Source: a virus | IMG/VR virus record: IMGVR_UViG_3300021960_000027 | Location: 53,938-117,937 of that record | Strand: one strand, 5' to 3' | DNA length: 64,000 nucleotides | Shown: positions 25,073-55,961 of the stretch, piece by piece | Layout: each line of letters begins with the position of its first letter | Numbering within the stretch: position 1 is the first letter of the stretch | Notes under the pieces: generated by a model | Told to the model about the DNA's origin: nothing | Databases searched by the model: none | Seen by the model: the letters and a program-made list of their open reading frames with translations, nothing else | Position numbers and translations under genes: made by a program

Positions 25073-25308
25073 CGACTTATTACACTCAGACAATCACTCA
25101 AACAACTGGAGATATCACTGTTGTCTTTGCTGAACTAGATAACGGCGACACTCTTTGCTTTCCAAACGAATCAGGTAACCCTGATTACGAGGAATACCTT
25201 GAGTGGGTCGCTTTAGGTAACACAGCAACGGCGTACACAGTTCCTTCCGTTGACGAGTATTTCCCCCCATCAGATTCTGAAATCATGTTCACAATGGAGG
25301 TCATCTAA
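25069..25308 (+). CDS. small fibre-associated protein
   Basis: This 79-residue acidic protein starts by an ATGA overlap with the long fibre and ends overlapping the next gene. Its placement right after a fibre gene suggests a fibre assembly factor or accessory subunit. No known motif is visible. Confidence 0.65.
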   Translation: MTTYYTQTITQTTGDITVVFAELDNGDTLCFPNESGNPDYEEYLEWVALGNTATAYTVPSVDEYFPPSDSEIMFTMEVI

Positions 25309-25667
25309 TGGCAATGACATACAAGAGGCTTGCCGGTCCCCTGACCGCCACAACCTCAACAACATCTATCTACACCGTGCCTCAAAACACTACGACAGTG
25401 GTTAAAGAGTTTATGTTGACGAATTACTCTGCTTCTGCCGCGACTATCACCGTGTATGTTAAAGAAGCCAATGTAACTTTAGGGGACGCTCACATCATCA
25501 TTTCTGACTTGTCACTTTCGGCAGACGAAACTTTTTCGATGTCGGCCTCGCTTGTTCTACACAATGACGGTGGCGTAGCCAGCGCAACGACCTCTGACCA
25601 AATTCATGTGGTTGCAAGTGTCGGTAGTGCAATCAACATTGTGATGAACGGAATTGAGGATGCCTAA
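25308..25667 (+). CDS. beta-rich virion accessory protein
   Basis: This 119-residue protein is made of Thr/Ser/Val-rich strands, with a KRLAGPLTAT start and a VKEFMLTNYSASAATITVYV strand pair. It resembles small baseplate, fibre or decoration proteins that form immunoglobulin-like sandwiches. It is coupled to its neighbours by one-base overlaps. The structural call rests on composition and context. Confidence 0.65.
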   Translation: MAMTYKRLAGPLTATTSTTSIYTVPQNTTTVVKEFMLTNYSASAATITVYVKEANVTLGDAHIIISDLSLSADETFSMSASLVLHNDGGVASATTSDQIHVVASVGSAINIVMNGIEDA

Positions 25668-26443
25668 TGGGAAAGTTCCATCGACGGAACAACCAAGGCC
25701 GCGGCAAGCAGTTGTTGTTTCAGACAACAGTATTTCAAGAAGAAATCGTTGAGACTTTAGAGACAGCAGATTCTCCTAACCCAATTTACGGGTCGGGTGT
25801 GGACGGAAGCATTACCTTAAATGGTTCTTCTTCGGGAACAGATGCGATCACAGGGAGCGGGACTTCCTACACTCTTGCTAGAGACTTGTTTTGTAAAAAT
25901 CTTAGTATCGGTTCTTCCGTACATTTGAATACAAATGGATATCGCGTATTTGTTCAGGGAACTCTTACCCTGTCTTCCAGTTCCCGAATTGGCTTTACTA
26001 CCGGACACTCAACCGCTGGTAGTATTCAACAAGGTGGTGCTATCAACACTTCCGTGACACATAGTTTGGGTGGGGATAGCGCAACTGAAACGGCTACTGA
26101 TCCAACAACGGCAGAAGGCGGGACTCTTTATTACAAGCAGGCACTTCAGGCGTATCGTGGATATTCAATTACTGCCGGTTCAACTTCTCCATCTTTTTTG
26201 CGTGGTGGGGCAGGGGGAACTGCCGGTGCGGGGGGTGGAGTAGTGATTATTTGCGCTCGCTATATTGCCCAACGTTCTGGTTCATCTAAAATAGCCGCGC
26301 CCGGAACGCAGGGAACTGGTGGGGGTGGCGGTGGAGTAGTTATTATTATTTCTTCTGGTTCTTCTCTTTCTTCTGGGGTAAATACAGAAGTTGTCGGCGG
26401 TACAGGTTGCGGTAATGGAACCGCTATTTACTTACAGGCATAA
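25667..26443 (+). CDS. glycine-rich fibre protein, short paralogue of the His-rich fibre
   Basis: This 258-residue protein has a basic N-terminus (RRNNQGRGK), then a beta-helix-like repeat region (strands such as LCKNLSIGSSVHLNTNGYRVFVQGTL near 88-110). A GGAGGTAGAGGGVVIICARY block and a Gly-rich C-terminus follow. The same order of segments occurs in the next gene, which carries a very long insertion between the Gly-rich blocks. The two are therefore tandem paralogues. Probably a fibre or adhesin subunit with a polyglycine-type tip. Confidence 0.75.
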   Translation: MGKFHRRNNQGRGKQLLFQTTVFQEEIVETLETADSPNPIYGSGVDGSITLNGSSSGTDAITGSGTSYTLARDLFCKNLSIGSSVHLNTNGYRVFVQGTLTLSSSSRIGFTTGHSTAGSIQQGGAINTSVTHSLGGDSATETATDPTTAEGGTLYYKQALQAYRGYSITAGSTSPSFLRGGAGGTAGAGGGVVIICARYIAQRSGSSKIAAPGTQGTGGGGGGVVIIISSGSSLSSGVNTEVVGGTGCGNGTAIYLQA

Positions 26444-26445
26444 TC

Positions 26446-28323
26446 GTGGCACGCACTAGACGGTTTAACAGTGTTCTTCGTAAATTGGAGAAGGCCGCGT
26501 CTGAGGGCACGACAGTTAATGATTGGTTGTTTGGTTCTGGAGAGCATGGTGATGTGACCGTCGCTAACGGTCAAACCGTCACACTGGATTCTGACAAATA
26601 CTATGAGAATCTGACTGTAAATTCTGGGGGAACGCTGTTTACTAACGGCTTCCGTGTATTTGTCAACGGCACACTGACAAACAATGGTACTATCGGCTTT
26701 CCCTCTGGCTCTGCTGATGTTACAACAAACCCATCAAGCATTTCTCGCCGTAGCCATACTGCGGTCAGTTACGGAATTGGTGAGGCTTCTAATACCGTAA
26801 CTGAAGGAGAGTTATATGATTTAGATGACGTTATTGGTGGCTATTACATAACAGCGTCTGGTTCTATTCGCGGTCTTCAAGGTGGCGACCCCGGTACAGA
26901 CGGGTCTGATGGAAGCATTACGGCTAACGCAACAGCAGGTAATGCCGGTAGTGCTGGTACTTATCCGGGTGCCGCGGTGGGTGCCCCCGGCGGTGCAGGC
27001 AATCCCGGTACGTCAGGTAACGCGGCAACGGCTGGTACTGCTGGAGGTAGGGGAGCCGGTGGGGGAGTTGTACTCATCATTGCCCGTACGGTTACTGGTT
27101 CTGGAGAAATTGTTAGTTTTGGTACGGCGGGAACAAGCGGTAATGTTGCGACGCAAGGTACTGACGGCTCGGATGGGACTTCTGCCCCCAATATCGCGGC
27201 GTATGCAAACCCCGGAAATACCCACACTTCCGGTCACAATGCTGGTTCTGGATCACACCCAGCAAACAGTCTTGTACCCAACTTGAGTCACAATGCTACG
27301 GCGTACAGTGCTGGACATAACGCGGGTCACGGGCATCACCCCGCTAACGGTCCGCATGGAAACACTGGTCATAACGCGACGGCGCATGCGAACGGACATA
27401 ACGCTGGACATGGTCATCATCCCGCTGGCGGTCCGCATGGTAACCACGGACATCACGCCAGCACAACTCGGTCAAACCACCACCACCATGTTCAAAACCA
27501 TCATCATGTTCGATCAAATCACCATCACCACACGCAAACCAACCATCACCACCACACCGACTCTCACCATCACACGCGATCAAACCACCACCACCACACC
27601 CGAACAAACCATCACCACACCGTAGGACCAGTTCGTTCTAACAGCCATCATCACTTTAGGTCGAACTACCACTCAGGAAACCACAGGTCTAACCACCATT
27701 TCCACGGGCGATCAAACCACCATCATCACCATCACACTCAGTCGAATCACCACCACCACACCCAAACAAACCATCACCACCATGTTCAAAACCATCATCA
27801 TGTTCGATCAAATCACCATCACCACACTCAGACAAATCACCACCACCACACCGATTCTCACCACCACACGCGAACGAATCATCACCACCACACGGCTGGC
27901 GACGCAGGTCACCCCGCAAACGGAGCAATGGCTCCAAATCACCACGCCTCGGTGAACTACGCACATAACTCTGGTACTACAGCCCACCCCGCTGGCGGTT
28001 CGCTCGCTCCTAACCACAGTGCCTCGGCTCATCCCGCTGGTCATAATGCCGGTAACGCAAACCACGCGGCAAATGGAACTCTTACCACAAATCACAATGC
28101 TTCATCGCACCCCGCAGGGCACAACGTCACTCACAACCCAAATTATTCAGGAGGTTCTGGGGGAGGGAAAGGCACTGGTGGAACTGCTACTGATGGCAAC
28201 GCTGGCAACCAAGGACAAAAGGGTGCTATTATTGTTGTGACCAGACAAATGGACTCTAATGTCCGCTCGGCTCAGTTGGGCAACCACTCCAACTATGCCA
28301 GAATTATAGATGTGGATGGATAG
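26446..28323 (+). CDS. giant histidine-rich tail fibre protein
   Basis: This 625-residue protein starts at GTG. Residues about 40-105 match the beta-helical part of the preceding paralogue (NGFRVFVNGTLTNNGTIGF). Residues 145-235 are Gly/Ala/Thr-rich. Residues about 260-335 are GHNAGHGHHPANGPHG-type repeats. Residues about 337-484 hold more than 60 histidines in clusters of three to six separated by Asn, Ser, Thr, Gln and Arg. A second HPAG-rich repeat zone (485-575) precedes a Gly-rich end with an IIVVTR strand. Such His density should bind metals strongly. The frame is intact and uses both CAC and CAT, so it is not a sequencing artefact of one codon. Confidence 0.85.
   Translation: MARTRRFNSVLRKLEKAASEGTTVNDWLFGSGEHGDVTVANGQTVTLDSDKYYENLTVNSGGTLFTNGFRVFVNGTLTNNGTIGFPSGSADVTTNPSSISRRSHTAVSYGIGEASNTVTEGELYDLDDVIGGYYITASGSIRGLQGGDPGTDGSDGSITANATAGNAGSAGTYPGAAVGAPGGAGNPGTSGNAATAGTAGGRGAGGGVVLIIARTVTGSGEIVSFGTAGTSGNVATQGTDGSDGTSAPNIAAYANPGNTHTSGHNAGSGSHPANSLVPNLSHNATAYSAGHNAGHGHHPANGPHGNTGHNATAHANGHNAGHGHHPAGGPHGNHGHHASTTRSNHHHHVQNHHHVRSNHHHHTQTNHHHHTDSHHHTRSNHHHHTRTNHHHTVGPVRSNSHHHFRSNYHSGNHRSNHHFHGRSNHHHHHHTQSNHHHHTQTNHHHHVQNHHHVRSNHHHHTQTNHHHHTDSHHHTRTNHHHHTAGDAGHPANGAMAPNHHASVNYAHNSGTTAHPAGGSLAPNHSASAHPAGHNAGNANHAANGTLTTNHNASSHPAGHNVTHNPNYSGGSGGGKGTGGTATDGNAGNQGQKGAIIVVTRQMDSNVRSAQLGNHSNYARIIDVDG
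27475..27600 (+). repeat. His-rich internal duplication, copy 1
   Basis: This copy encodes a 42-residue unit of clustered histidines, repeated 294 bases (98 codons) downstream. The two copies are identical at 41 of 42 residues but differ at several synonymous third positions, so the amino-acid sequence appears to be under selection. Confidence 0.85.
27769..27894 (+). repeat. His-rich internal duplication, copy 2
   Basis: This is the second copy of the 42-residue unit. It keeps the reading frame and differs from copy 1 by one Ser/Thr change and several silent changes. The spacer between copies contains related but less regular His clusters. Confidence 0.85.
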
Positions 28324-28573: not shown

Positions 28574-28755
28574 TGTTGTCAGACAGCAGTCCAACACATA
28601 AGTTGTATGCTTGCTGTTTGATGGCTGGAGTTAATCCATCTTCTCTGACTAAAGAGTGGATAATGACAGCACCTGAGGGAACCGTACAGTACGACTTAGA
28701 AATATTTCTTCAAATTGCATTGAATGAGTTTCAGTCTGATAATCTAAATACCTAA
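28573..28755 (+). CDS. small hypothetical protein
   Basis: About 60 residues from the ATG at 28573, which overlaps the previous stop as TGATG; an in-frame GTG sits at 28570. It contains a CC pair near residues 13-14 and a helical C-terminus. It links the fibre genes to the dioxygenase cassette by overlapping starts and stops. Confidence 0.6.
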   Translation: MLSDSSPTHKLYACCLMAGVNPSSLTKEWIMTAPEGTVQYDLEIFLQIALNEFQSDNLNT

Positions 28756-29459
28756 TGGCCTGCCCAACTTTTCATTTTGCTGGTCACCGCAGTAACTACA
28801 TTTTGATCGGTGACGATGTGGTTGATGCAGACGTATGCGATGACATTATCTCAAGATGTTTAGCCAACTATGATGATTTCTTTTACCCCGGACCGACTTT
28901 AGGTGGGGTAGACGTTGCTACAAAATCTAGTATGGATTTTGATTTTGGGGTAGATTCTGTTGTTAGCAAAGGTTTTGATCCAGAGCCGTGGGCGACGTAC
29001 GAATCAATTATGAGTAATGCCCTCACTACAATTATTAGTGAGTATCAGTCTAGTTTTTTTGATCTTTGGCGAGTGCCTAATTTAGTGGACACCGGATTCC
29101 GTCTTCAGCATTACGCAAAAAATTACGGTTACTACAGGGAACACATTGACGGTTGTGTTTGGGGACCAGTTTCTTCTCGTACAAGAATCTTTGGTGTAGT
29201 AATTTATTTAAATGACATTGATTCTGGTGGGGAAACACATTTTCCCATTCAAGAAGAGAAGGTGCAGGCAAGGGCGGGTCGGATTGCATTGTTTCCTGCC
29301 GCGTGGACACATCCTCACGCCGGTCTTCCTGCACATAGTAGTGACAAGTGGATGATTAGTTCATTTATCACATGCACTCCAGACGATGACTATTTAGAGT
29401 ATGATATTGAATCTGGAGAAATGAAGTCCCCCAATAATCAGTCAGGAGATGATGCGTGA
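28755..29459 (+). CDS. 2-oxoglutarate/Fe(II)-dependent dioxygenase (prolyl 4-hydroxylase type)
   Basis: This 234-residue protein shows the double-stranded beta-helix motif set of 2OG-Fe(II) oxygenases. H130 and D132 are in YYREHIDG. A VIYLNDIDSGGETHFP core follows, with the distal histidine in WTHPHAG near 187-189 and a basic residue near 198 (DKWMISSF) that could bind 2-oxoglutarate. The family hydroxylates protein side chains or small molecules. It is the first of two adjacent oxygenases before a halogenase, all surrounded by fibre genes, so the substrate may be a virion or host-surface component. Confidence 0.88.
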   Translation: MACPTFHFAGHRSNYILIGDDVVDADVCDDIISRCLANYDDFFYPGPTLGGVDVATKSSMDFDFGVDSVVSKGFDPEPWATYESIMSNALTTIISEYQSSFFDLWRVPNLVDTGFRLQHYAKNYGYYREHIDGCVWGPVSSRTRIFGVVIYLNDIDSGGETHFPIQEEKVQARAGRIALFPAAWTHPHAGLPAHSSDKWMISSFITCTPDDDYLEYDIESGEMKSPNNQSGDDA

Positions 29460-30070
29460 AAAAGGGAGAGGCAGTAGGGGTAGAGGTAGCACCTTGCATT
29501 GTCGTTTATGAAGATGTGTTTGATGCCACCATTTTTTTGCGTACTCTTGTTCAAGAATGTGAAAACGAAGAAGGTTTTCTTAATTGGACAAGAGACACTG
29601 TAGGTGATGGAGAAGTAACTGATAAGCGAACTTCTATGAGTTGTAGCATCGATAACTTGCGTGATGCAGAAGAATATTCAGAGACGCTTAACGAAAATAC
29701 AAAATTGTTGATTGATGAGTGGATGCAAATTTTCCCCAAAATTGACGACGTAGTTTGGTCATACCGCAGTTCCTACGACCTTCCTTTGCGCGGAGATCAG
29801 GGATACCGAGTTTTGCGTTACCGAGGTGGCGAAGAATATCAAGCCCATCACGACCACGGTCCGGGTAACAACAGGGTTCTCAGCATCGTTGCTTTTATTA
29901 ACGATGGATACACGGGGGGCGAACTGGTATTTCCTACCTTTGATGTAACCGTGACTCCTAAGGCGGGGAGTGTTGTTGCCTTTCCGTCTAACTTCCCCTA
30001 CAAGCACATTGCTAAACCTGTAGGCGAGGATGGTTCGGCTAAGTATTCGCTTGTTTCGTGGTTTGAGTGA
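29456..30070 (+). CDS. second 2OG-Fe(II) dioxygenase
   Basis: This 204-residue protein starts at GTG in an overlap with the first oxygenase. The HxD motif is in YQAHHDHGPG near 130-132, followed by IVAFINDGYTGGELVFP. The distal histidine is in FPYKHIAKPV near 183, and the C-terminal KYSLVSWF strand would carry the 2OG-binding residue. It is divergent from the upstream oxygenase, so the pair probably act on different sites rather than being a recent duplication. Confidence 0.85.
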   Translation: MKKGEAVGVEVAPCIVVYEDVFDATIFLRTLVQECENEEGFLNWTRDTVGDGEVTDKRTSMSCSIDNLRDAEEYSETLNENTKLLIDEWMQIFPKIDDVVWSYRSSYDLPLRGDQGYRVLRYRGGEEYQAHHDHGPGNNRVLSIVAFINDGYTGGELVFPTFDVTVTPKAGSVVAFPSNFPYKHIAKPVGEDGSAKYSLVSWFE

Positions 30071-31578
30071 TGCATAAGCACATTGTAATTGTTGGCTCAG
30101 GAACCGCCGGACTAACCACTGCCATTAGCCTCAAGTCGTGGTTTCAAATGTACGACATTACCGTTGTGTCGTCTAAGAACATTGGCATCATTGGGGTTGG
30201 AGAAGGTTCTACTGAGCATTGGCGCGGTTTTCAAAATGACATGGATATTCCCATTGAAGGGTTGCTGACTAAATCAAAGGCAACCCATAAATACGGGATT
30301 GCGTTTGAAAATTGGACAACTCACACCCCTCATTACTACCACTCTGTTTCTCACGGTCCAATTACTATCGGTAACTTTGCGGGTTCTTACGCCTACTGCA
30401 TTGAGAACGATTTGCAACTGACTAAGACTCTTTCTTGGCGGGGCATGAAAGACGGCAAGATTCCTTATAGCGAAGACAAGGAAGGCAACGAAAATACTCA
30501 TCTTAATACCAACCAATATCACTTTGATACACACGCTCTTAACGATTTTTTGAAAGTAATTGCTGTTGAACGCGGTGTGTACTTTGTTGAGGATGAAGTT
30601 GACTTTGTTGTCAAGGACGAAGAAGGTTGGGTTGACTCTCTTTATTTGAAGAGGGCTAGGGGCAGAATTAAAGCCGATCTATTTATTGACGCTTCAGGCT
30701 TTAATCGTGTGCTTTTAAAAGAGATGGACGACCAAACGTTTGTCGATTACGGAAAATATTTACCTTGCGATAGTGCAGTAGTTTTTCCAACTCCCTCGCG
30801 CGAAGATGGAAAAATCCTTCCTTTTACTCGTTCTCGCGCCTTAAGTTCTGGATGGCTGTGGGAGATTCCGACTCAAGAACGTAGGGGAAATGGATACGTC
30901 TATTCTTCTAAGTACATTTCTGACGATGAAGCACAGAAAGAGGCGTTTGACGCGGCGGGCTATGAGTCTGAAGAAAGCCGTATCCTTCGGTTTGAATCTG
31001 GTTACATGAAAAAGACTTGGCAAAAGAACGTTGTGGCAGTTGGCTTGTCTTCTGGTTTTATTGAACCTTTGGAGGCAACATCTATTTCTATGTCGCTACA
31101 GCAGGCTCGCTTAATTGCTTCCTATTTACCGACGTTTAATAAAGAGTCGCGATTCATGGTGGATGAGTACCATCGACTTATGGATCAAATTATGGAAAAC
31201 ACTTTGTCCATGATTTCTCTCCACTACATTTCTGACCGTACGGACTCTGAGATGTGGAGAGATCAGCAGAACGCCCCCAAGCCAGAACTGTTAGAACGGC
31301 TTTTAGGGTTGTGGGCAGAACGTTGCCCAGAGATTCACGACATGCCCCATTCTGGATTTGAGTTATTTAATCCTGTACACTTGTGGCATGTAGCGCAAGG
31401 TCAAGGTTTGATTGATAAAGACTTAGCCACTATGCAACTGGATGCCTACGGTTCTCGCGGTCCATCTCGTCAGCATATTAATCAGGTAACTGCCGAGTAT
31501 ATGAGGGGAGATATCGTTGACCACCGAGAAGCACTCCAGCGACTTGCCGAACGATTTGAAGATAGTCAGTCCAAGTAG
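30070..31578 (+). CDS. flavin-dependent (tryptophan-type) halogenase
   Basis: About 502 residues from the ATG at 30070 (TGATG overlap). It has the FAD-binding GSGTAG near 9-14 and the W-x-W-x-I-P signature of flavin halogenases (WLWEIP near 262-267). A lysine at about 74 (ATHKYGIAF) matches the catalytic lysine of PrnA/RebH, and a FIEPLEATSI block near 330-339 has the active-site glutamate. All key residues are present, so the enzyme should be active. It needs reduced flavin from a host reductase. Viral halogenases are known from cyanophages, including an iodinating enzyme. Substrate here is unknown. Confidence 0.9.
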   Translation: MHKHIVIVGSGTAGLTTAISLKSWFQMYDITVVSSKNIGIIGVGEGSTEHWRGFQNDMDIPIEGLLTKSKATHKYGIAFENWTTHTPHYYHSVSHGPITIGNFAGSYAYCIENDLQLTKTLSWRGMKDGKIPYSEDKEGNENTHLNTNQYHFDTHALNDFLKVIAVERGVYFVEDEVDFVVKDEEGWVDSLYLKRARGRIKADLFIDASGFNRVLLKEMDDQTFVDYGKYLPCDSAVVFPTPSREDGKILPFTRSRALSSGWLWEIPTQERRGNGYVYSSKYISDDEAQKEAFDAAGYESEESRILRFESGYMKKTWQKNVVAVGLSSGFIEPLEATSISMSLQQARLIASYLPTFNKESRFMVDEYHRLMDQIMENTLSMISLHYISDRTDSEMWRDQQNAPKPELLERLLGLWAERCPEIHDMPHSGFELFNPVHLWHVAQGQGLIDKDLATMQLDAYGSRGPSRQHINQVTAEYMRGDIVDHREALQRLAERFEDSQSK

Positions 31579-38751: not shown

Positions 38752-38991
38752 GTGTTTACGCGTGAATCGTGGATGGACAGGTCTTCCTGCCAAACGTACC
38801 CAACTGAAGTGTTTTTTCCAGACGAGTCTTCTCGTAAAAAGGATAAGGGTCGTGAGGCAATGTTGATTTGCTCCACTTGTCCCGTTCGTTCGGAGTGCTG
38901 GGATTATGCATGCCGATTCAAAGTGACTCACGGTGTATGGGCAGGTGTACTTTTAACCCCAAGAGGAAGAAGGGTAGATGTCGTTGAGTGA
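38752..38991 (+). CDS. WhiB-family iron-sulphur transcriptional regulator (1)
   Basis: This 79-residue protein has the four cluster cysteines C13, C40, C43 and C49 in the WhiB pattern, followed by the G-V-W-x-G turn (residues 61-65) and an Arg-rich tail for DNA contact. The GTG start lies after a weakly spaced AGGGAG. WhiB proteins bind host sigma factor and alter transcription, and phage WhiB can block host WhiB2. This is strong evidence for an actinobacterial host. Confidence 0.92.
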   Translation: MFTRESWMDRSSCQTYPTEVFFPDESSRKKDKGREAMLICSTCPVRSECWDYACRFKVTHGVWAGVLLTPRGRRVDVVE

Positions 38992-42976: not shown

Positions 42977-43287
42977 CGGTGGCCGAAGAACAAGCGTCTG
43001 ATTATTTTGATTTTCCAAGCACCCACCTAAAGGGTGAAGTTATTGCCTACGAAATTGATTGGGGCAAAAGAGAAAGACCTTGGGTATACAAGGCTTCCTG
43101 CATCGGAAAGACTGAAATATTCTTTTCTTCAGACCCAAGGGTGCGAAAAAGGGCTATCGCTCTGTGCGATTCATGCGAAGTTCGTGCTGAGTGCGAAGAT
43201 TATGTCAAGACAATTCCTCAGGACGATGTTTGGGGCATTTGGTGTGGTAAAACCCGCGAGCAACGTAAGGCAGAGCGTCGTGGGTAG
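42973..43287 (+). CDS. WhiB-family iron-sulphur transcriptional regulator (2)
   Basis: This 104-residue protein has cysteines C43, C65, C68 and C74 in WhiB spacing, with a W-G-I-W-C-G turn near 87-92 in place of the typical G-V-W-G-G. It starts at a TTG in an overlap; GTG at 42979 is an alternative. The N-terminal 40 residues are unusual for the family. It is a second, divergent WhiB within 4 kb of the first. Confidence 0.82.
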   Translation: MTVAEEQASDYFDFPSTHLKGEVIAYEIDWGKRERPWVYKASCIGKTEIFFSSDPRVRKRAIALCDSCEVRAECEDYVKTIPQDDVWGIWCGKTREQRKAERRG

Positions 43288-43399
43288 GGATTTTGTCCTG
43301 TCGTCAATGCTTTCTTGGCCTACTAAGTAGTGTCAGTCACTGTCTTGTGATTGATTTCAACGACTAAGTAGCGGAGCCTCCACGTTAAAGGGTTTTTGA
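43288..43399 (+). other. intergenic region with ACTAAGTAG direct repeats
   Basis: This 112-base gap contains ACTAAGTAG twice (43322-43330 and 43363-43371). The first copy is part of the near-palindrome CTACTAAGTAG. No good promoter pair or terminator is visible. The repeats could be a regulator binding site between the WhiB gene and the late gene block. Confidence 0.35.
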
Positions 43400-53375: not shown

Positions 53376-55961
53376 ATGGCTACCCATTCCAATCACAAAC
53401 ATTCTGGTGTAAACAGCGAACTCTACTGGAAAGCCTTCCCCAATGACAGAGTTAAAACTGTCGATGGGGAAGGAATTGTCGCGTCTGTAAGCGACGGGTT
53501 TGCTCCTGACACAGAAAAATATGAGATTGTTTTATCTGCCGGTGGGGGAGGCGAGTATTCCTCTTCAGAAATTCTTGAGGTGCTTAACAACACTGGGATT
53601 TCTACGTCTGCCTCTGCCCTCCCCGAAAAGTTGTATCACGCAACATGGGAGCCAAATTTTAATGGCATTGTGAACAAGGGTCTTAAGGCAGGTACATACT
53701 TTGCCAACAAACTTGATTACGCAGTCGGATTTGTTGCCATGCGCCCCGGCGAATACAAGGGCATGGTCTGGAAACGTTTCCCAGATAAAGATGGCAATTA
53801 CATAGATTTTCAGGTGCCTGATTACGAGTACCACGACACGATTGCTGTGTTTTCAATTAGGGTAAGCAAGTTAGATAAGTCTCTTATCAAGGAAAGTTGG
53901 GATCATTCCCCGTCTTATTTCCCATCCGACCTTTTGTCGTACACATACGAGGGCGACATTAAGGGCTATGAACTTGATTTTGAGGGGTATTACCATAACC
54001 CTTCTGCACCAACTACTGCATCGCTTCGCACAACCTCGGCACGCACGCATGGACTAGAACTTGCTCCACTTGGAAGTCAGCACACTGCCGCGGATGATTA
54101 TCCAGAGTTAAATGAGATTCTCTGGGATCGACCAGATTTGATTGATGCCGAACCAGTTGGTTCAGGCATGCTGTCCTTGTCTAAGTTGGCTTCTGTACAA
54201 CGCAAGATTGCAATCAGCCCAAAAGAATTTAGGGAGCAGTTTGGGACACCGCACAGGGACTGGCGCAATTCTGACCCGAACAGAACTCCTGCTCAATATC
54301 AAACCGCACAGGAGTTGGTTGATGATCCAAACACCCCTTGGTGGTGGAGAAAAATTGTCGGTCCGGCTGTTGAGCGTTATGAAGAATCGGCTGGCCTTAA
54401 GTACGACATGGTTAATGCGCCATCAAGAGACTGGTGCCGGTTTAGGCGAGATTCACAGTGCTATTACCCACGAAACCTAGATGAGTACGCTACTGCTCAG
54501 GCTGGCTATCCGGTGTGGATTCCAGAGAATCGTGGTCAGTGTCCACGGACTCCTTGGAATTTGCAAAAGCAGTGCGACATGGCAGAACCCGGTCCGAATT
54601 CTCGCGAAAAAGTCGTGTATCCAGATGCAACGATTCCGTGGAGTGCGGGTGGGCAGAGAATTCCGGGCGGTGCCCGTAGAGTTGCTTCCCTGTACAAGTC
54701 TTCGTCTTGGCGTGATGTTCAGGCAAAGGCAAAGCGTATTAGGAAAAATGGATTTGTCAGAATCCTTGCCGTGTCTGGTGGTGTCATCACTGCTCAGGTA
54801 AAGGGCGATAGCAATATCTATGAGACTTCAATAAGTCGTGTTCCCGGCACTACGCAGGTTGCGCTGTGGTCTTGCGGATGCGACTGGTCAACTTATTCTT
54901 GGGGACGTTCTGGTCGCTGGAAGAAGTATGAGGGTCGCATGTGCAGTCATGCACTTGCCGTCATGTATGAGGCTCAGGCGAGAGAAATGTTTGGTGGGGA
55001 ACTCACCAGCGAAAACATCGATCCAAATTGGCTGACACAGAAGCCGGTTCAAGAGCGTCGTACCACTCCCGGCGAGTGGAGACTTGACGTTGCCGCGTCG
55101 CTTGATAGTCACATTGAGGCGATTGATAGTCGTCGTCTTGCAGTTCTTGCTGATACCTCTCTTTCTGACGCAGAGCAGTCAGAGGCGTTGGGGCAACTTG
55201 CCAGCGCATCTTCTATGATGCGCTTGGATCGTGTTGCTATTTTTTCTTCTCCTGTAGAACCACTGGATTCAGTTGGTCAAATCCCCGAATCCGCTGTTGC
55301 ATTGAATTTTCCTGTCCAGTACATGGGGGAGATTTGCACGGTATTGGGTGTTAATCCAGATACCCATACATGCATGTTGTTGGAACACGGCGAGGTTCCC
55401 ACCCACGCATGCAGTCACCCATCTTATGATTCGGCTTCCGGTCTTCGACTTAAGGACGATGCAATTCCTGTTGCTATTGAGGCACGCAAGACAGCAAAAG
55501 ATCAGGTTGTCGAAGATTCTGTTGAGGAAGAGCCGGTTGAGGAAGAGCCTGCTGTTCAATCAGAATCAATGCTTAACGAAGAACCAGAGCCTGCCCTGCC
55601 AGTTGCCGAGGCGTTTGAAGATGGTGACGAATACGCACTAGAGGACGAAAGCCCTGTTGACAAGGCAGATGATATTGAGATGGTTTCTTCTCATGCAAAC
55701 TTGTCTCCCGGCAATCCATCTCTTGAATGGTTGATGAGCGGTTCAAGCAAAACGGGATCAAATGATACGTCTGACATTGCTTCTGCCGCGAAAGACTTTC
55801 TTGCCAAAGTTGCGGTGAGAGAATTCTCTCCCTCAGAGCAGGCAGACATTATTGGTGAAGGGGAAGGGGACAGGGCAAAAAACCTTGATCTTCTACAGAT
55901 TGAGGGAACCCATTACCAATCAATTAGCGACGATCAACAAGACGACCAGTTTCTGTGGTGA
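53376..55961 (+). CDS. large multi-domain protein with ADP-ribosyltransferase-like N-terminus and SWIM zinc finger
   Basis: This 861-residue protein starts at ATG after AGAGGTG. Residues 20-75 look like a small beta barrel. Residues about 84-200 (LYHATWEPNFNGIVNKGL, then TYFANKLDYAVGFV) suggest an ADP-ribosyltransferase-like fold of the LYH type. A SWIM zinc finger (C-x-C near 499-501, C-x-H near 523-525) lies later. Basic linkers occur near 273, 434 and 702. Glu/Pro-rich low-complexity sequence spans about 705-765. It shares the polyprotein style of the neighbouring large genes. Confidence 0.7.
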   Translation: MATHSNHKHSGVNSELYWKAFPNDRVKTVDGEGIVASVSDGFAPDTEKYEIVLSAGGGGEYSSSEILEVLNNTGISTSASALPEKLYHATWEPNFNGIVNKGLKAGTYFANKLDYAVGFVAMRPGEYKGMVWKRFPDKDGNYIDFQVPDYEYHDTIAVFSIRVSKLDKSLIKESWDHSPSYFPSDLLSYTYEGDIKGYELDFEGYYHNPSAPTTASLRTTSARTHGLELAPLGSQHTAADDYPELNEILWDRPDLIDAEPVGSGMLSLSKLASVQRKIAISPKEFREQFGTPHRDWRNSDPNRTPAQYQTAQELVDDPNTPWWWRKIVGPAVERYEESAGLKYDMVNAPSRDWCRFRRDSQCYYPRNLDEYATAQAGYPVWIPENRGQCPRTPWNLQKQCDMAEPGPNSREKVVYPDATIPWSAGGQRIPGGARRVASLYKSSSWRDVQAKAKRIRKNGFVRILAVSGGVITAQVKGDSNIYETSISRVPGTTQVALWSCGCDWSTYSWGRSGRWKKYEGRMCSHALAVMYEAQAREMFGGELTSENIDPNWLTQKPVQERRTTPGEWRLDVAASLDSHIEAIDSRRLAVLADTSLSDAEQSEALGQLASASSMMRLDRVAIFSSPVEPLDSVGQIPESAVALNFPVQYMGEICTVLGVNPDTHTCMLLEHGEVPTHACSHPSYDSASGLRLKDDAIPVAIEARKTAKDQVVEDSVEEEPVEEEPAVQSESMLNEEPEPALPVAEAFEDGDEYALEDESPVDKADDIEMVSSHANLSPGNPSLEWLMSGSSKTGSNDTSDIASAAKDFLAKVAVREFSPSEQADIIGEGEGDRAKNLDLLQIEGTHYQSISDDQQDDQFLW

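Follow-up and report, generated by a model that had tools for sequence, protein, structure and literature searches.

The histidine-rich open reading frame

What would a phage do with a protein that packs 66 histidines into 148 residues and is encoded among its tail fibre genes? The question is raised by a 64,000-nucleotide stretch of viral DNA, positions 53,938 to 117,937 of IMG/VR record IMGVR_UViG_3300021960_000027, which is called the window here. A first-pass annotation of this DNA had described the gene as a tail fibre with a metal-holding shaft.

By sequence count the 625-residue product contains 100 histidines (16%), including nine HHHH runs, six three-histidine runs and one six-histidine run. 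The earlier estimate of more than 60 histidines in residues 337–484, mostly in runs of three to four, proved accurate, since 66 were counted; about 2.6 would be expected there at the phage's own frequency of 1.8%, and the sampling probability of 66 in 148 is about 1e-73. This poly-His core, with units such as RSN-HHHH-TQT-N-HHHH-TDS-HHH, lies within a longer insert (residues 251–565) that has 97 His, 43 Asn, 15 Pro and 4 Tyr and contains no Lys, Glu or Trp. The flanks of the insert (residues 251–336 and 485–565) are His-Gly-Asn-Ala-Pro repeats, e.g., GHNAGHGHHPANGPHGNTGHNATAH, in agreement with the His-Gly-rich repeats noticed earlier on both sides of the core. Proline is scarce in the insert and absent from the core. 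The N-terminal frame is ordered as a β segment (residues 36–84), Gly-rich repeats and the strand GGGVVLIIAR. Compared with PHROG and Pfam, the protein has no Pfam match and only a weak match to one PHROG whose function is unknown, and it is the gene context that suggests a tail fibre or other tail protein. The features of the locus are listed in Table 1. Elsewhere in the window, a perfect 15-base tandem repeat, GTTGAGGAAGAGCCG, is present in two copies at 55521–55549 within an 861-residue open reading frame.

Table 1. Features of the window discussed in the text (window coordinates).
Feature	Position	Strand	Evidence or content
Large tail fibre protein, 1172 aa	21554..25072	+	PHROG 4492 tail fiber, E 2e-48
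Conserved 119-aa protein upstream of paralogue	25308..25667	+	Synteny
Paralogous frame protein, 258 aa, without His insert	25667..26443	+	phmmer cross-match, E 2e-6 to 7e-6
His-rich adhesin-like protein	26446..28323	+	625 aa, GTG start; 146 homologous ORFs, 62 clusters at 80% identity
N-terminal conserved frame, residues 1–250	26446..27195	+	Alignments A1, A3
His/Asn/Gly/Ala-rich insert, residues 251–565	27196..28140	+	
Poly-His core, residues 337–484, 66 His	27454..27897	+	Units (R/T)(S/T)N-HHHH-(T/V)Q(T/S)
Hexahistidine run, residues 425–430	27718..27735	+	Sequence
C-terminal conserved part	28141..28323	+	Gly-rich segment, strand GAIIVVTRQ, tail HSNYARIIDVDG; alignment A3
2OG-Fe(II) oxygenase 1, prolyl-4-hydroxylase-like	28755..29459	+	Pfam PF13640; PDB 3itq/5hv0, E 4e-6
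2OG-Fe(II) oxygenase 2, prolyl-4-hydroxylase-like	29456..30070	+	Pfam PF13640; PDB 3itq/5hv0, E 2e-8
Flavin-dependent halogenase (Trp_halogenase family)	30067..31578	+	Pfam PF04820, E 7e-104
WhiB-family regulator	38752..38991	+	PF02467, E 2e-16, above cut-off
Second WhiB-family regulator	43034..43330	+	PF02467, E 4e-10, above cut-off

Translation and selection of the histidine-rich region

Two metagenomic contigs, L002 (complete, 689 aa) and L003 (partial), share the His region with the window protein at 82–90% amino-acid identity. Across residues 251–565, 91 of the 97 aligned histidines are conserved in L002 (62 of the 66 in the poly-His core) and 45 of these 91 use the other His codon, with the caveat that repeats may align out of register and inflate the His identity of such alignments. 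The number of repeats differs in frame between the window protein and that of L002. In the N-terminal 250 residues dN/dS is about 0.10 by the Nei-Gojobori method; silent rates in the repeat region exceed saturation, so that no value is given there. Since the histidines are kept while half of their codons differ, sequence comparison indicates that the frame is translated and selected at the protein level, and a non-coding or slippage artefact is excluded on the same grounds. The possibility left by the first-pass annotation of an untranslated frame is thereby removed. Simple expansion of a CAC repeat by slippage is ruled out by the mixed His codons of the open reading frame (63 CAC, 37 CAT).

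A family that conserves composition rather than sequence

The viral metagenome search proposed earlier did find relatives. Searches with profiles of the frame retrieved loci L051–L054 and L055–L078; 80 more came from a profile built on the upstream paralogue and a further 78 from halogenase seeds, with some contigs present in several sets. When grouped at 80% frame identity, the 146 open reading frames of the His protein form 62 clusters, each of which combines a conserved β/Gly-rich frame with an insert of its own sequence and length. In 35 distinct inserts, delimited approximately by motifs, His averages 17.5%, compared with 1.8% for the phage proteome and 0.9% for the frame. There is a 2–2.7-fold enrichment of Asn, Pro and Gly and a depletion of Lys, Arg, Glu, Asp, Leu and Met. 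His makes up 2.8% to 15.7% of the whole protein across the family, with the window protein and that of L002 at the top. The inserts conserve composition, not sequence.

A functionless, low-complexity expansion, in which the repeats simply grew by slippage, would account for the tandem repeats and for the in-frame difference in repeat number between the window and L002. It does not account for histidines that persist despite randomised third codon positions, nor for the recurrence of the same composition in 35 divergent inserts from the 62 clusters. Neutral growth is therefore strongly contradicted already and is very improbable. The region was also considered as the target of a diversity-generating retroelement; this was rejected, as no reverse transcriptase (PF00078) was found in the 117.9-kb record, which is possibly incomplete.

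The signature of the family is H-[N/P]-x-G, and H[N/P]xG motifs are 2–15-fold over-represented in the inserts. In the 34 inserts other than that of the window, HNxG, HNAG and HPAG occur at 4–15 times the expectation from composition (HNAG 15-fold, HPAG 11-fold), whereas HxH and HH occur at just 1.12 and 1.04 times expectation; even in the poly-His core of the window HxH is at 1.01 times expectation. The HxH iron site, which the first-pass annotation had mentioned from fibres such as T4 gp37, is thus not supported as the principle behind the protein. An HHHH run is absent from most members and many such runs are found only in the lineage of the window; the poly-His core is common only to the window protein, L002 and L003, and is a lineage-specific elaboration. 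A scan of viral contigs at the DNA level for HHHHxxxNHHHH gave 46 loci, with the protein only in L019 and L034, which are the contigs of L002 and L003; the others comprise mostly short or shadow frames and one 264-residue His/Leu-rich frame (L038). In the distant relative L165 (8390–10021), a short stretch, RDNHHFHVQSNHHHTARDNHHHT, resembles the poly-His units of the window, so the motif exists beyond the immediate lineage.

The main rival of a reading as an enzymatically modified adhesin is that the inserts are metal-binding loops, in which Zn, Cu, Ni or Fe would stiffen or cross-link the adhesin or bridge it to metal-binding groups of the cell wall. From the chemistry of His tags, HHHH and HHHHHH runs are well-established ligands of transition metals, 62 of the 66 core histidines are kept in L002, and His-Gly-rich metal binders occur elsewhere, such as Hpn of Helicobacter and the Nereis jaw protein Nvjp-1. 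On the other hand, histidines across the family are not clustered as in chelators, judging from the near-random HxH and HH frequencies, HHHH runs are missing from most members, inspection of the cassette revealed no metal genes, and many of the sites would be flexible, given the lack of confident structure in the AlphaFold2 (AF2) model. Metal loops as the function of the family are accordingly doubtful. What can be retained of the metal role suggested previously is the chemistry: by analogy with His tags, the window protein, with its HHHHHH and nine HHHH runs, is likely to bind Ni, Cu or Zn in vitro, while entry driven by metal is unsupported.

Among isolate phages, megablast and tblastn searches gave no match to the His protein or its paralogue, and cellular genomes gave just four weak matches, which carry no clue to the host. 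An outgroup scan seeded with the insert-less L077 found no relatives. In the literature, no paper was found on His-rich phage fibres of such a kind or on halogenase-modified fibres. The family is previously undescribed and the window protein is its most extreme member.

The frame, its paralogue and the position of the insert

The paralogue is always found just upstream of the His protein (80 loci), and its His content is 0.4–2.6% in almost all relatives. AF2 predicts a confident β structure for it (pLDDT 85.6, 16 sequences). Between its strands GGGVVIICARYI and GVVIIIS there is no more than a short strand plus a Gly-rich loop of 13 residues, while in the His protein about 370 residues, including the His insert, separate the corresponding strands GGGVVLIIAR and GAIIVVTR. 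The family frame is 19% Gly, and conserved Gly columns stand on either side of the diverged insert. The full-length AF2 monomer model has a mean pLDDT of 40 and is confident only around residues 36–84, 209–217 and 595–602. Searches of PDB sequences with profiles A3 and A4 gave no matches at E ≤ 1, and Foldseek comparison of the paralogue frame with the PDB gave none at E ≤ 0.001, with gp38 not listed. From these models, the His region looks like adhesin loops, inserted between Gly-rich β-strands. The term shaft in the first-pass annotation is not supported by such an arrangement, because the frame, judged from its paralogue, is predicted to be a compact single-chain β fold rather than a trimeric shaft of the T4 gp37 type.

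The probable host

The terminase of the phage matches mostly phages of Mycobacterium, Gordonia and Rhodococcus, together with a few Microcystis phages, and the DnaE-type polymerase has a wider range of matches that includes Mycobacterium phages. Two WhiB genes and the actinophage-like terminase suggest that the host is probably an actinobacterium. A cyanophage origin was considered and rejected, since the 117.9-kb record, possibly a fragment, has no psbA family match and WhiB genes are present.

The host bears directly on the Ferrojan Horse idea raised in the first-pass annotation, in which iron carried on the His protein would let the phage enter through a receptor for siderophore-bound iron. 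Actinobacteria are not known to have outer-membrane TonB siderophore receptors. Furthermore, HxH is not the motif of the family and the His protein does not look like a trimeric HxH shaft. Entry by this route is hence most improbable here, even though HxH iron sites are present in T4 gp37 and HxH motifs have been reported in marine phage fibres (PMC11705849).

Linkage to oxygenase and halogenase genes

The gene order in the window is tail fibre, small open reading frames, paralogue, His protein, two open reading frames of 80 and 61 residues, two oxygenases, halogenase and further fibre genes, one of which has an S74 chaperone domain. Both oxygenases score above the PF13640 cut-off, and their sequences have HID and HHD motifs of the HxD...H iron-ligand type. 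The halogenase matches PDB halogenases with E 1e-62 and the viral VirX1 (6qgm) with E 2e-39; its catalytic residues, the conserved Lys of ATHKYGIAFENW and the Glu of SGFIEPLEATS, line up with those of solved halogenases, and WLWEIP fits the WxWxIP motif.

On every contig that extends far enough, a flavin-dependent halogenase accompanies the His gene, and prolyl-4-hydroxylase-like oxygenases almost always do so too, a constant association that the first-pass annotation did not mention. The halogenase is present in 69 of the 80 loci seeded with the paralogue, a seed unbiased for enzymes, and in the other 11 the contig ends in or before the His open reading frame or within 1.9 kb after it. Conversely, the paralogue and the His protein are present in 51 of the 54 halogenase-seeded loci with room on both sides. 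Exceptions are L190 and L193, which, like the shorter L187, have adhesin-like proteins with 28–31% Gly and about 1–2% His near the halogenase; in L200 a 38% Gly open reading frame is about 9 kb from it. The halogenases of L187, L190 and L193 are about 50% identical to that of the window, and their Gly-rich neighbours may be the alternative type of adhesin of this enzyme clade. Three His-protein clusters with room have no detected oxygenase. Neighbours farther from the cassette vary between loci.

Second copies and additional enzymes were also seen. L111 and L112 (1575–3685) have a second oxygenase and halogenase pair upstream of the cassette on the same contig. In L139 (1599–7440), L102 (3669–5796) and L107 (1–1626), two to four extra 2OG-oxygenase-like open reading frames lie upstream of the paralogue; these are the members with the longest inserts (proteins of about 1,080–1,130 aa), which may suggest that enzyme number tracks insert length.

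Among isolates, Syn10, S-SRM01 and S-SZBM1 have related halogenases near Gly-rich fibre genes or annotated adhesin genes, and in S-SSM7 and S-PM2 they lie within 1–9 kb of annotated structural genes. In Cyanophage Syn10 (L083; 3832–6941 and 7488–10593), fibre-like genes of 22–35% Gly lie directly upstream of its two halogenases, with several 2OG-oxygenase-like genes following downstream, which repeats the theme of the window. Synechococcus phage S-H38 (L079, 14832–15116) has an unannotated 95-residue open reading frame that is 29.5% His and begins like a signal peptide, about 4 kb from its halogenase.

The linked enzymes could act on something other than the adhesin, for example on a small molecule, a wall polymer or a host metabolite, and merely travel with host-interaction genes. 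Related tryptophan halogenases use free small molecules as substrates, and some cyanophage halogenases (P-SSM2, S-B64) are not beside an adhesin. VirX1, another relative working on free small molecules, is cited as accepting diverse substrates (Gkotsi 2019, as cited in PMC10452541). It would then be harder to see why the enzymes stay next to one protein almost constantly in 62 clusters while farther neighbours change, and why two unrelated families of side-chain-modifying enzymes sit together with the His protein. Linkage without modification of the adhesin is a possible explanation, and one we lean against.

A proposed adhesin with enzymatically modified loops

That the loops favour His, Asn and Pro, and that their constant neighbours belong to hydroxylase and halogenase families, suggests that enzymes modify the loops. 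His, Asn and Pro are known targets of 2OG oxygenases. The conserved β/Gly-rich frame, shared with the paralogue, would display a long loop region that evolves fast and consists of little else than His, Asn, Gly, Ala, Pro, Thr and Ser, and the loops most likely touch the host surface, as the hypervariable gp38 loops of S16 and PP01 do. The prolyl-4-hydroxylase-like oxygenases most likely hydroxylate Pro, Asn or His in the loops, and the halogenase most likely halogenates an aromatic side chain, His being nearly the sole aromatic kind present. Against His as its target is the finding that Gly-rich partners with only 1–2% His also keep the halogenase. The scarcity of proline in the window insert counts against modification of the loops too, as do the three His-protein clusters in which no oxygenase was detected. 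Modification of the loops would tune or diversify adhesion. We infer from gene context and composition that the His protein is located in the virion, contacts the host and is enzymatically modified. We give even chances to the reading of an adhesin-like tail protein that touches the host surface with its loops and has them modified by the linked oxygenases or halogenase. The more specific version, in which His, Pro and Asn side chains are both hydroxylated and halogenated by the co-encoded enzymes into chemically non-standard receptor-binding loops, is tentative.

Viral ‘tryptophan halogenases’ and 2OG-Fe(II) oxygenases occur in large numbers in aquatic phages, where they are usually classed among the auxiliary metabolic genes, with no known native substrate. 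Here one large clade of them is tied to a single structural partner, which makes their role directly testable; if the reading is true, a large group of such orphan viral enzymes would have adhesin modification as its native role. The large family of strongly His-biased viral proteins, selected for composition rather than sequence, sits in phages that probably infect actinobacteria of the environment, a group for which next to nothing is known of host recognition. New here is an extreme insert, under selection for its composition, in an adhesin-like Gly frame, and an enzyme-modified adhesin would potentially be a new principle.

Comparison with known systems

The halogenase of the window belongs to the same enzyme family as VirX1 of cyanophage Syn10, whose gene also lies beside Gly-rich fibre-like and 2OG-oxygenase-like genes; the partner of VirX1 differs in being Gly-rich with 2–4% His. 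Bacterial prolyl 4-hydroxylases (PDB 3itq and 5hv0) are the closest solved relatives of both linked oxygenases, at a considerable distance (E 2e-8 to 4e-6 over 70–100 residues). Models of collagen-like proteins of the giant viruses Orpheovirus and Pandoravirus resemble the predicted frame of the paralogue (Foldseek E 3e-10 to 3e-8, TM-score 0.55–0.57 by query length); these matches come from different viruses and the likeness covers the paralogue frame.

The tip of T4 gp37 and the fibre of alterophage R22Y have 6–7 HxH iron sites on the trimer axis (PMC11705849). Like them, the His protein is of fibre type and contains HxH; it differs in having runs of four histidines within an insert and in belonging to a family without HxH enrichment.

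The gp38 adhesin of Salmonella phage S16 and E. coli phage PP01 is a polyglycine-II sandwich with hypervariable loops (PMC6851490, PMC12892980). The His protein resembles it in its single-chain β frame, its Gly-rich motifs, the variable loops between Gly-rich segments and its place among tail fibre genes, and differs in its insert of hundreds of residues, in its probable Gram-positive host and in its linked enzymes. PDB searches with the family profiles and with the predicted frame of the paralogue detected no sequence or fold relation to gp38. By analogy, and with no homology implied, the His protein most likely works like gp38.
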